Source: Nitrospirota bacterium
GTDB lineage: Bacteria > Nitrospirota > Thermodesulfovibrionia > Thermodesulfovibrionales > JdFR-85
Direction: 5' to 3'
DNA length: 46,619 nt
Assembly (NCBI GenBank): GCA_013151495.1
Contig: JAADIE010000081.1
Coordinates: 1-46,619, forward strand
The notes below the pieces were generated by a model. It was not told where the DNA came from, searched no databases, and worked only from the letters and a program-made list of their open reading frames with translations. Shown here piece by piece: positions 8,199-13,332 of this stretch (its first letter is position 1; every line of letters begins with the position of its first letter). The position numbers were made by a program, and so were the translations under genes.

Positions 8199-9179
8199 TT
8201 ACCATTTAATCAGGGCTGAGCCCCAGGTTAACCCTCCACCGAAGGCCTCAAGAAGAATATAATCGCCCTCTTTTATACGACCGGTCCTGACTGCTTCGTC
8301 AAGTGCAAGAGGTATAGAGGCAGCAGAGGTATTGCCATGACGGTCGAGGGTAAGCATAACCCTGTCCAGCCCCAATCCAAGCCGTTTTGCTGTGGCAGCA
8401 ATAATTCGGTGGTTGGCCTGATGGGGTATCAAAAGAGAAAGTTCATCGGGTTTAACGCCATTTTCCTTGAGCGTGTCGACCACAAGCCTCTCAAGTGTTC
8501 GAACCGCCACCTTGAAGGTCTCGTTGCCTCGCATCTTTATGAAATGAAGCCTTTTCTGGACGGTCTCCTTTGTTGCGGGCATTCTTGAGCCCCCTGCCGG
8601 TACATGCAGAAGGTCCCACATCGAGCCATCAGCATAGATGTTTACCGAAAGGATACCCCTTTTGCCTTTTGTCTTCTCTAAAACCACTGCTCCTGCGCCA
8701 TCGCCAAGAAGCACACAGGTGGTTCGGTCTTTCCAGTCGGTAATTCTCGATAACACCTCTGCCCCCACAACCAGCACCCTTGAGTACACACCAGAGCGAA
8801 TAAAGCTGTCTGCTACTGAAAGGGCATAGATGAAACCAGAGCATGCAGCATTAATATCGAAGGCTGGAATGTTTTTTATACCAAGTTTGTGCTGAAGTAT
8901 GCATGCTGTTGAAGGAAGAATCATATCAGGGCTTACGGTGGCTACCAGGATCAGGTCCAGTTCCTTTGGCTTGATACCAGCGGCCTTTAATGCTTCTTTC
9001 GAGGCCATAAGGGCAAGATCAGAGGCTGCCTCCTGTTTGTCGGCGATTCTTCTTTCCCTTATGCCTGTCCTCTCTCTGATCCATTCATCAGAGGTGTCAA
9101 CCATCTTTTCAAGATCAAAATTAGTCAGAACCTTCTTGGGTAAATATGAGCCGGTACCGATTATCTTTGCATGTACCAA
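8199..9179 (-). CDS. fabH: 3-oxoacyl-[ACP] synthase III
   Basis: [39 protein letters not shown] motifs. Confidence 0.96.
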
Positions 9180-9199: not shown

Positions 9200-10240
9200 T
9201 TATGTAGTCTTTACTGGTTCGGGTTGTTGCTGGGGCGAAAGGATATCCCGATATCTACTTAGTTCCTCTATGATCTTCTGGTAAAACCTCTGCTTGGCAA
9301 ACTCGTTGGCAAGTTTTATTGCATTTCTTATAGCCTTAGAGCTTGAGCGTCCGTGGCTTATTAAACAGGTGCCGTTAATACCAAGAAGCGGAGCCCCACC
9401 GTATTCGGAATAGTCGGTTTTCTTTTTAAAATTACGCAGTGCGGGTTTAAGCAACATATAGGCAATCTTTCCGGTCTTTATATCGGCAATCTCCCTTTTA
9501 AGCATCTTCATAATCGTGTCTGCCAGCCCCTCACTTACCTTCAATACAATGTTTCCTATAAAGCCGTCACACACAACCACATCTGCCACACCGACAAAGA
9601 TGTCCTTGCCCTCAATATTTCCGGCAAAGTTAATGTCGGTGTTTTTTATCAGCTTGAAGGCCTCTTTTGTCAGGAGATTTCCTTTTGTATCCTCCTCACC
9701 AATACTCAGGAGTGCAACCTTGGGATCCTCAACCCCGAGAATCCTCTTTGAAAATGCCCTTCCCATAAGGGCAAATTGAAGGAGGTTTTCGGGTTCGGTA
9801 TCCACATTTGCGCCTGCATCTATAAGGACAAACTTACCGGTAAGGGTGGGCATTGTGGTAGCTATGGCGGGTCTATGTACACCGGGAGACTTGCCAAGCA
9901 ACAGAAGGGCCGTTGCCATCACCACCCCTGAATGTCCTGCACTTACAAAGGCATCAGCCTCCTGGTTCTTCACGAGCTCAATGCCTTTTCTTATGGAAGA
10001 ATCCTTTTTTCTTCTAATAGCAGTAGAGATGTCATCATCCATCTGGACAGTCTGGGTGGTATGTAATATAGAGATCCTTTCCGGGGGGTAATGTTTCCTT
10101 TTTAACTCTTTCTGTAAAAGCTCTCTATCCCCAACAAGTACGATCTCTATATCATCTGTTTCGTTAACGGTCTCAACCGCACCTTCAACAGTGGTCCGGG
10201 GGGCATGATCTCCCCCCATTGCATCAAGGGAGATCCTCAT
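9200..10240 (-). CDS. plsX: Phosphate acyltransferase PlsX
   Basis: MRISLDAMGGDHAP start and SAGHSGVVMA motif. Confidence 0.96.
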   Translation of the reverse strand: MRISLDAMGGDHAPRTTVEGAVETVNETDDIEIVLVGDRELLQKELKRKHYPPERISILHTTQTVQMDDDISTAIRRKKDSSIRKGIELVKNQEADAFVSAGHSGVVMATALLLLGKSPGVHRPAIATTMPTLTGKFVLIDAGANVDTEPENLLQFALMGRAFSKRILGVEDPKVALLSIGEEDTKGNLLTKEAFKLIKNTDINFAGNIEGKDIFVGVADVVVCDGFIGNIVLKVSEGLADTIMKMLKREIADIKTGKIAYMLLKPALRNFKKKTDYSEYGGAPLLGINGTCLISHGRSSSKAIRNAIKLANEFAKQRFYQKIIEELSRYRDILSPQQQPEPVKTT

Positions 10241-10429: not shown

Positions 10430-10966
10430 TCAGTTCTCCTTTCTGTCTGAGAGTAGTTTCTTCAGTATTTCGAATCGTGGATCTATGCTGGTTTGGTTGC
10501 AAGAGCAGTTTTGAAGGTTCAGATCCTCACCGCATACAGGACAAAGCCCTTTGCAGTCATCGCTACAAAGAGGCTTCATCGGGAGGTTAAGGATAAGCTG
10601 CTCCCTGATAACATCCTCTATGTCGATTTCATCATTTCTGTAAAAGGCAATGTCCGACTCATCAGGACTAAGCTCATGAGCCTCCTCATCACCCATTTCC
10701 TCTATTGGTAGATAAATAAGCTCAACATCAACGGAGAGGTCCTTTTCGAATTCGATCAGACACCGACTACACTGAAGGGTTACCCTGCCTGTGATGTTGC
10801 CTTTGATGCTAAGCTCCTCTTCAACACGGTTCAGTACCAGTGATGCCCGCACATCTCCTACCGGCCTCAGCAGGCTGTTTCCTTCAAGGGGCTCTGAGAA
10901 CTCAATCTCGAGGCCCTCATCCTCGATCTCAGTTATTATTATTTTCATTCTTTCCTCTGTTATCAT
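10430..10966 (-). CDS. YceD/DUF177 family protein
   Basis: Position directly upstream of rpmF, CSRC...CSDDCKGLCPVCGEDLN pattern. Confidence 0.9.
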   Translation of the reverse strand: MITEERMKIIITEIEDEGLEIEFSEPLEGNSLLRPVGDVRASLVLNRVEEELSIKGNITGRVTLQCSRCLIEFEKDLSVDVELIYLPIEEMGDEEAHELSPDESDIAFYRNDEIDIEDVIREQLILNLPMKPLCSDDCKGLCPVCGEDLNLQNCSCNQTSIDPRFEILKKLLSDRKEN

Positions 10967-11022
10967 AGTGTACAGGACATATTATTTTATCATTATTGGT
11001 AAATATGAAGATACCCTCTGAT

Positions 11023-11052
11023 TTGAGATTTTAAGGGAATTAAAATTATAAT
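11023..11052 (+). promoter_or_regulatory. Putative sigma70 promoter for acylphosphatase-bioB
   Basis: TTGAGA (11023-11028)-N18-TATAAT (11047-11052). Confidence 0.6.
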
Positions 11053-11074
11053 GTTTAATAAAAAAGGTTGTCAA
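11045..11074 (-). promoter_or_regulatory. Putative sigma70 promoter for yceD-rpmF-plsX-fabH
   Basis: Minus strand TTGACA-N18-TATAAT, both hexamers perfect consensus. Confidence 0.7.
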
Positions 11075-11104
11075 TAGGTTCTGAAAAAGTTAAGGGGGTT
11101 TATT

Positions 11105-11383
11105 ATGGCAAAAATCAGAGTGCATCTTTATATTGAGGGGAAGGTACAGGGGGTGTGGTACAGGGCCTTTACCAGGGATGTGGCCACAAAATATGGAATA
11201 AGGGGATGGGTTAGAAACCTCCCCGATGGCAGGGTAGAGGCTGTATTTGAGGGTGATGAAAGTGATATTGAAAAGGCTATTGCCGAGTGTTATAAGGGGC
11301 CACCTGCAGCGGTAGTAACAAACATAGATATCAAAAAGGAACCTTTTAAAGGAGAATTTAATGGTTTTGAGATCAGATACTGA
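11105..11383 (+). CDS. Acylphosphatase
   Basis: GKVQGVWYRAFTRDVATKYGIRGWVRNLPDGRVEAVFEG. Confidence 0.95.
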   Translation: MAKIRVHLYIEGKVQGVWYRAFTRDVATKYGIRGWVRNLPDGRVEAVFEGDESDIEKAIAECYKGPPAAVVTNIDIKKEPFKGEFNGFEIRY

Positions 11384-12335
11384 AAATAAAGATATCTTTG
11401 ACGCACTGATAACAGGCGAGCCTGTTCCGGATGATACAGTAGTAGAATTCATAAGTACCTCTCCTATTCATCAGGTTTTTGCATTAGCATCAGAGTTGAG
11501 GGCAAGATATCGTGGAAACAAGGTGGACCTGTGTTCGATCATTAATGCAAAATCTGGCAAATGCCCTGAGGACTGTAAATACTGCGCCCAGTCAATACAC
11601 TACCAGACCGGGGCTGAAAGCTATGGTCTACTTGACAGGGAGAGGATCCTCGAGCAGGCCAGAGAGGCTAAAAAATGGGGCGCAAAGAGGTTTTGTATAG
11701 TAACAAGTGGCAAGCGGCCAAGTCCTAAGGAGCTTGAAAGAATAGCAGACTGTATTGCCAGTATAAAGGAAATTGGTCTTCTACCATGTGCTACCCTCGG
11801 TATACTATCAAGGGAAGATCTACAACTGCTAAAAGAGGCTGGCCTGAACAGATACCATCACAATCTTGAGACCTCAAGGAGCTTCTTTCCTGAGGTATGT
11901 TCAACCCATAGCTATGATGAAAAACTGAAGACCATAGAGGCTGTTAAGGAACTTGGTCTTTCGCTTTGCTGTGGAGGAATTTTTGGTCTTGGCGAAGACT
12001 GGCAACATAGAATGGAGATGGCAAGAGAGCTTAAAAGGATTGGGCCAGACTCAGTGCCAATAAACTTTCTGATCCCTATAAAGGGTACCCCCCTTGGTAG
12101 AAGACCCAAGCTTAATCCGGTGGAGGCCTTGAGGGTGGTGGCCCTTTTCAGGATAGTTTTGCCTGACGCTGAGGTGAGGGTGTGTGGCGGACGTTTGCAG
12201 GTGCTTGGTGAGTTTAATTCCATGATCTTCATGGCTGGGGCAGATGGCCTGCTGGTGGGAAACTATCTGACACAACCAGGCAGAGTGGTTGAGGACGACC
12301 TACGAATAATCAGGGCCCAGGGGCTTAGTTATTGA
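11361..12335 (+). CDS. bioB: Biotin synthase (radical SAM)
   Basis: KSGKCPEDCKYCAQS motif, YHHNLETSRSFFPEVCSTHSYDE, LLVGNYLT C-terminus. Confidence 0.96.
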   Translation: MVLRSDTENKDIFDALITGEPVPDDTVVEFISTSPIHQVFALASELRARYRGNKVDLCSIINAKSGKCPEDCKYCAQSIHYQTGAESYGLLDRERILEQAREAKKWGAKRFCIVTSGKRPSPKELERIADCIASIKEIGLLPCATLGILSREDLQLLKEAGLNRYHHNLETSRSFFPEVCSTHSYDEKLKTIEAVKELGLSLCCGGIFGLGEDWQHRMEMARELKRIGPDSVPINFLIPIKGTPLGRRPKLNPVEALRVVALFRIVLPDAEVRVCGGRLQVLGEFNSMIFMAGADGLLVGNYLTQPGRVVEDDLRIIRAQGLSY

Positions 12336-12345
12336 GGCCTGAACC

Positions 12346-13332
12346 GTGAAGCCCACCTTTCACTGCCGAGTGGTAAATGGTCTTTTTGATGATCCTGTTT
12401 TGTATGTGAGAATAATCCGAGAGGGTAAGGCCCTGCTCTTTGATGCAGGTGACATCTGGGCACTAAATGCCAGAGAGATTCACAAAATAGCCCATGTATT
12501 TATTTCTCACACCCATATAGACCACTTTATCGGATTTGACAGGCTGCTAAGGATACTATTACGCAGAATCTGGCCGCTATATATCTATGGACCAGAAGGA
12601 ATTATAGAATCTATTAAAGGAAGACTCTCTGGTTATACATGGAACCTTATACAGGAATACCCACTTGAGTTTTATGTCCAAGAAGTAAGGCCTGAGAGCA
12701 TAGTCACAGTAAGGTTTTCCGCTTCTGAAGGCTTTGAGCCAGTACAGCTTTATAACCGAGAAAACAGTGGCATCGTTTATGAAAACGAGCTCTTTCATGT
12801 AAAGGCCGAGATCTTAGACCATGGTATCCCTGTACTTGGCTTTTGCCTTCAGGAAAAGGAGCATCTTAATGTTGATCCGGTAAGGTTAAAGGAACTATCC
12901 CTGCCAGTGGGCCCATGGCTTGGCAGACTCAAGGAGGCAATAAGAACTGGTAATCTCACAGAGGATATTCCTGTTACTGAGCAGGGCAAAGTGGTCAGGG
13001 CCGAGGATATGCTCAAACAGGGAGTTGTTAAAAAGACCCGGGGGCAGAGGATTGCCTATGTGGTGGATGTGGCTCCAACAGAGGATAACATCGACAAGAT
13101 CAAGGCCCTTGTGTCAGAGGCTGATCTGCTTTACATTGAGGCTTATTTCCTCGAAGAGGACAGAGACAGAGCTGTGGAGCGTCGTCATCTTACAGCATCC
13201 CTTGCTGGAAGGATTGCGGCAGAGGCTAAAGTGAAAAGAGTGATTCCTCTTCATGTGTCGCCAAAATACAAGGGACGAGAAGTTGAGGTGATTCAAGAGG
13301 TACAACAATTTTACAATATGCTCAAACATTAA
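12346..13332 (+). CDS. MBL-fold (RNase Z-like) metallohydrolase
   Basis: HVFISHTHIDHFIGFDRLLRIL, GTG start, C-terminal HxS-like IPLHVSPKYKG. Confidence 0.85.
   Translation: MKPTFHCRVVNGLFDDPVLYVRIIREGKALLFDAGDIWALNAREIHKIAHVFISHTHIDHFIGFDRLLRILLRRIWPLYIYGPEGIIESIKGRLSGYTWNLIQEYPLEFYVQEVRPESIVTVRFSASEGFEPVQLYNRENSGIVYENELFHVKAEILDHGIPVLGFCLQEKEHLNVDPVRLKELSLPVGPWLGRLKEAIRTGNLTEDIPVTEQGKVVRAEDMLKQGVVKKTRGQRIAYVVDVAPTEDNIDKIKALVSEADLLYIEAYFLEEDRDRAVERRHLTASLAGRIAAEAKVKRVIPLHVSPKYKGREVEVIQEVQQFYNMLKH

Follow-up and report, generated by a model that had tools for sequence, protein, structure and literature searches.

A putative bidirectional promoter with a symmetrical -10 element between yceD-rpmF-plsX-fabH and acyP-bioB in a Nitrospirota bacterium

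Two gene groups that lie back to back, yceD-rpmF-plsX-fabH and acyP-bioB, very probably have a single symmetrical promoter in common, usable by RNA polymerase in either direction. The site, located in the stretch of 46,619 nucleotides that was analyzed here (the window), is best read as a sigma-70-type bidirectional promoter, in which the symmetrical -10 element of a conserved yceD promoter was recruited in this lineage for acyP-bioB; we assign this reading a probability of about 0.8. The initial annotation had proposed a bidirectional promoter with a shared -10, and this is supported by the elements themselves, their spacing, shuffled sequences and the rarity of the arrangement. The promoter type is already known, and the present site is an unusually clean example that is near consensus on both sides.

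Genes and promoter elements

The identities of the flanking genes were checked against Pfam and NCBIfam. The minus strand carries yceD (10430-10948, PF02620), which probably starts at 10948 behind the Shine-Dalgarno motif AGAGG (10958-10954) and whose closest named relative, from a Nitrospirae MAG, shares 40% identity. It is followed by rpmF for ribosomal protein L32 (10237-10428, PF01783), plsX (9200-10240, PF02504) and fabH (8199-9179, PF08541/PF08545). On the plus strand, the acylphosphatase gene acyP (11105-11383, PF00708) is preceded by a good Shine-Dalgarno motif, AAGGGGG (11092-11098), and its end is overlapped by the biotin synthase gene bioB (11361-12335, TIGR00433). A ribonuclease Z-like gene (12346-13332, NF002558) is probably part of the same operon.

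In the 156-bp intergenic region between yceD and acyP, the plus strand harbors TTGAGA (11023-11028, five of six consensus bases) and TATAAT (11047-11052), directed toward acyP-bioB, and the minus strand harbors a perfect TTGACA (11069-11074) and TATAAT (11045-11050), directed toward yceD-rpmF-plsX-fabH. Reading of the sequence and an independent scan agreed to the base with the positions and sequences given in the initial annotation. The two -10 hexamers overlap by 4 bp inside the palindrome ATTATAAT (11045-11052), so that TATAAT can be read on either strand. TTGAGA-N18-TATAAT matches the consensus at 11 of 12 positions and TTGACA-N18-TATAAT at all 12, and these two ranked highest among seven promoter-like matches in 2.5 kb. 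Both spacers measure 18 bp, slightly above the optimum of 17 bp, which was counted against the preferred explanation. No plus-strand promoter better than TTGAGA-N18-TATAAT was found by the scan in the 156-bp gap before acyP, which, together with the good Shine-Dalgarno motif of acyP, argues for a promoter in the acyP direction.

Transcription starts had been expected near 11059 on the plus strand and 11038 on the minus strand, seven bases past the respective -10 elements. Transcription usually starts at a purine. Both bases are T on their own strand; the more likely start sites are the nearest purines, A11058 or A11060 on the plus strand and A11041 or A11040 on the minus strand. From this geometry the predicted divergent starts lie 17-21 bp apart. 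The pair 11058/11040 would be separated by 18 bp, with a T at -18 on both strands.

Frequency of the two-sided arrangement

Since the intergenic region has a GC content of 27% compared to 44% in the window, the region itself was shuffled to obtain the null distribution. An overlapping pair with a total of 23 of 24 matches did not occur in any of 20,000 dinucleotide shuffles, and pairs with at least 21 matches occurred in 0.045% of them. Across 20 shuffles of the entire window no overlapping pair came up to 22 matches. The overlapping promoter pair is not a product of chance.

Genome-wide counts were obtained by pattern searches. TTGACA-N15-18-TATAAT is found 17 times in this genome but only once as the reversed control, which indicates that the housekeeping promoters of the organism follow the sigma-70 consensus. 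A strict two-sided pattern, TTGANN-N14-16-ATTATAAT-N14-16-NNTCAA, has a single match in this genome, and a search of 396 genomes of the phylum yielded 14 places, distributed over 13 genomes; the reversed pattern, used as control, occurs in neither set. According to a crude ORF call, about eight of the 14 places are located between divergent genes, namely the present site and those at Fur-family regulators (L074, L104, L105), rnpA (L098), a response regulator (L102) and bioA/lepA (L099, L100), and the remainder lie within genes, between tandem genes or in an unclear setting. Judged by these counts, against none for the control, the two-sided architecture is a real, rare and recurrent class. At two of the Fur-family genes, from two genomes of family f10 (L074 and L104, around 1501-1551), a -35 of the symmetrical promoter overlaps a Fur-box-like sequence, TTGATAATGATT..., which suggests autoregulation.

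Conservation in related genomes

The promoter facing yceD is widely conserved. A TTGACA-type -35 and a TATAAT-type -10 separated by an 18-bp spacer are present at 20 of the 29 yceD loci that were inspected in the order. Upstream of yceD in L043-L072 the promoters are close to perfect consensus, and the constancy of the 18-bp spacer across the order is unusual. The genus is represented by one further genome, the sister genome G001, in which ATTATAAT is identical and 28 of 33 bases agree over the stretch that contains the plus-strand -35 and -10. However, its -35 toward acyP has decayed to TTGTGC (three of six), and the minus-strand spacer toward yceD is 16 bp long. Approximately 230 bp of extra, repeat-rich DNA precede acyP in this genome, where mutually similar repeat-rich stretches (GCGTTAATTGCGTT... 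and GTTGAGTTTTGAG...) occur before acyP and bioB (L003, 720-950 and 1230-1490). Elsewhere in the family, in genera g4 and g6, yceD and acyP are divergent on one contig and a reverse -35 is absent opposite the yceD -10; in g3, g5, g7 and g8 the two genes are located on different contigs. The promoter toward acyP is thus not conserved, and the full-strength symmetry is particular to this genome. Three loci from related genera (L006, L007, L010) carry TATGGCATAAT 6-7 bases ahead of the acyP ATG, a position that suggests a leaderless or near-leaderless mRNA.

The yceD leader contains further conserved sequence. Two blocks, 10980-10997 and 11005-11017, are identical in G001, while their flanks differ. 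The first, of 18 nt, includes a possible extended -10 on the minus strand, TGATAAAAT (10984-10992), which has no clear -35 and might represent a second yceD promoter, P2. The second, ATGAAGATACCCT, with no strand assigned, is identical at 13 of 13 positions. The blocks between 10980 and 11017, which were counted against the preferred explanation, could contain other regulation, a binding site or this second promoter. Two yceD promoters are likewise reported for E. coli (PMC13060810). By eye, the conserved block AATAATGATAAAATAATA resembles half a Fur box. A search of the region against Rfam gave nothing credible. When folded, the yceD leader in this genome was no more structured than shuffled sequences (z 0.46); the G001 leader is more stable than its shuffles (z -2.83), and the folds predicted for the two genomes differ.

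Proposed mechanism and alternative explanations

We propose that the conserved housekeeping promoter of yceD-rpmF-plsX-fabH, whose -10 reads TATAAT on both strands, would in this lineage also be bound by RNA polymerase in the opposite orientation, as TTGAGA, a good -35, stands across from it with suitable spacing. Polymerase bound in reverse would transcribe acyP-bioB and probably the RNase Z-like gene as well, so that transcripts would leave the site in both directions, from near A11058/A11060 and A11041/A11040. Because the geometry overlaps, polymerase is expected to bind the shared -10 one way at a time, and competition between the two directions is plausible here since both are near consensus. 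With its perfect consensus the yceD side should win. The output of acyP-bioB would then be limited by polymerase bound toward yceD and would form the minor product, a coupling by passive competition that would need no dedicated biotin or fatty-acid regulator.

It is rather unlikely that the yceD-ward promoter alone matters and that acyP-bioB is transcribed from another promoter or by read-through, the plus-strand match being an incidental by-product of the symmetry of the -10 and transcription from it weak. The minus-strand promoter is kept in the order and the plus-strand -35 is decayed in G001, and in several relatives the expression of acyP seems to depend on other sequences, with a -10-like element immediately ahead of the ATG. 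Against this stand the quality of the plus-strand match, which agrees with the consensus at 11 of 12 bases, its -10 being perfect, and has no strong plus-strand competitor in the gap, and the whole promoter pair, which exceeds the shuffles. The initial annotation went further than the bidirectional promoter and regarded mutual exclusion as a device that couples fatty-acid and ribosome genes to biotin synthesis. That such a device was selected is unlikely, although the geometry forbids simultaneous binding, competition appeared once bidirectional promoters of E. coli had been strengthened (PMC12825309), and other families provide, at lepA/bioA, a further case of a -10 common to a biotin gene and a translation gene. 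Exclusion makes the two outputs compete and predicts opposite rather than joint changes, and thus a joint rise of biotin and fatty-acid synthesis does not follow from it. Moreover, the arrangement is not conserved in the sister species or the family, E. coli promoters showed no competition at basal activity (PMC12825309), and a possible second yceD promoter would weaken the coupling still further. The metabolic coupling is therefore unsupported.

PlsX makes acyl-phosphate, which an acylphosphatase could hydrolyse. The functional partner on the plus side might thus be acyP rather than bioB, with exclusive transcription separating two antagonistic enzymes. Here acyP is first on the plus side and plsX lies in the opposing operon, and exclusion is more easily reconciled with such opposition than with a shared demand. 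This idea is nevertheless most improbable, as action of AcyP on long-chain acyl-phosphate is presumed, the arrangement is not conserved and a search of the literature turned up nothing that connects acylphosphatase with PlsX. The bidirectional promoter recruited in this lineage from the conserved yceD promoter is the reading we prefer.

Control of the biotin genes

Feedback or repression of the BirA type is unlikely, because HTH_11 (PF08279) was not found in this genome, which is 95.6% complete, and the biotin ligase (L096) contains BPL domains only, lacking the N-terminal HTH repressor domain looked for as a mark of a BirA-regulated operon. Inspection of the 156-bp gap by eye showed no BirA operator.

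A parallel occurs in families f29 and f41, where bioA is divergent from lepA with a common -10. Two of these loci match the strict pattern (L099 and L100, around 1501-1549). Among eight f29 loci with a lepA-like divergent gene, an assignment based on a short motif only, six have TTGACA-N17-TATAAT toward lepA overlapping TATAGT toward bioA. The shared lepA/bioA -10 sites, strong toward lepA, are those of L099 and L100 and those upstream of bioA in L118, L123, L130, L132, L133 and L136. In this genome bioA is not divergent from lepA, and the same test showed no symmetrical promoter for it. It would be a long shot to conclude that in the phylum a symmetrical -10 is repeatedly common to a biotin gene and the strong promoter of a translation gene (bioB with yceD-rpmF, and bioA with lepA in f29 and f41) and that polymerase competition thereby holds biotin synthesis down at high ribosome-related transcription, without a repressor. 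The parallel was drawn post hoc, and a tendency of divergent neighbours to borrow strong promoters may explain all cases. If the lepA/bioA parallel holds, it would suggest that in bacteria without a BirA repressor housekeeping transcription controls the biotin genes passively.

Comparison with known bidirectional promoters

Prokaryotic bidirectional promoters with a symmetrical -10 have been described by Warman, Grainger and colleagues (PMC10268837, PMC12825309), and in a 2021 study cited in both papers. Experiments have established this architecture in E. coli, bioA/bioB among the examples, which speaks for the preferred explanation (PMC12825309, PMC10268837). Their commonest configuration has 18 bp between starts and a T at -18, a base that is typical but not obligatory (PMC10268837). 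The present site resembles this class in its -10 elements overlapping on opposite strands, its divergent mRNA-coding genes and the expected steric exclusion of two polymerases, and the distance between the predicted starts falls within the 7-25 bp of the class. Their 2026 study states that polymerases cannot occupy both orientations together, but in five E. coli examples, including bioA/bioB, basal activity was too weak for exclusion to matter, and weakening of one direction brought no gain in the other (PMC12825309). When one -35 was strengthened, the other direction was repressed; exclusion affected the output only when one direction was strong (PMC12825309). In contrast to these promoters of low basal activity, both -35 elements are near consensus here, with starts that are predicted rather than mapped. 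As competition in E. coli appeared only at high activity, a pair that is naturally near consensus is of use for testing it, and the site adds a clean example to a promoter type whose role in regulation is still under study.

As at bioA/bioB of E. coli (PMC12825309), a biotin synthesis gene would be read here from a bidirectional promoter. However, the E. coli promoter has biotin genes on both sides, whereas the partner here is yceD-rpmF-plsX-fabH. BirA represses both the bioA and the bioB side in E. coli, unlike the present case, in which the biotin ligase has no repressor domain. The site also resembles the lepA/bioA promoters of other families of the phylum (L099, L100 and six f29 loci), which likewise combine a perfect consensus toward a translation gene with an overlapping -10 toward a biotin gene, although the genes are different and the -35 toward bioA is weaker there (three to four of six bases in f29).
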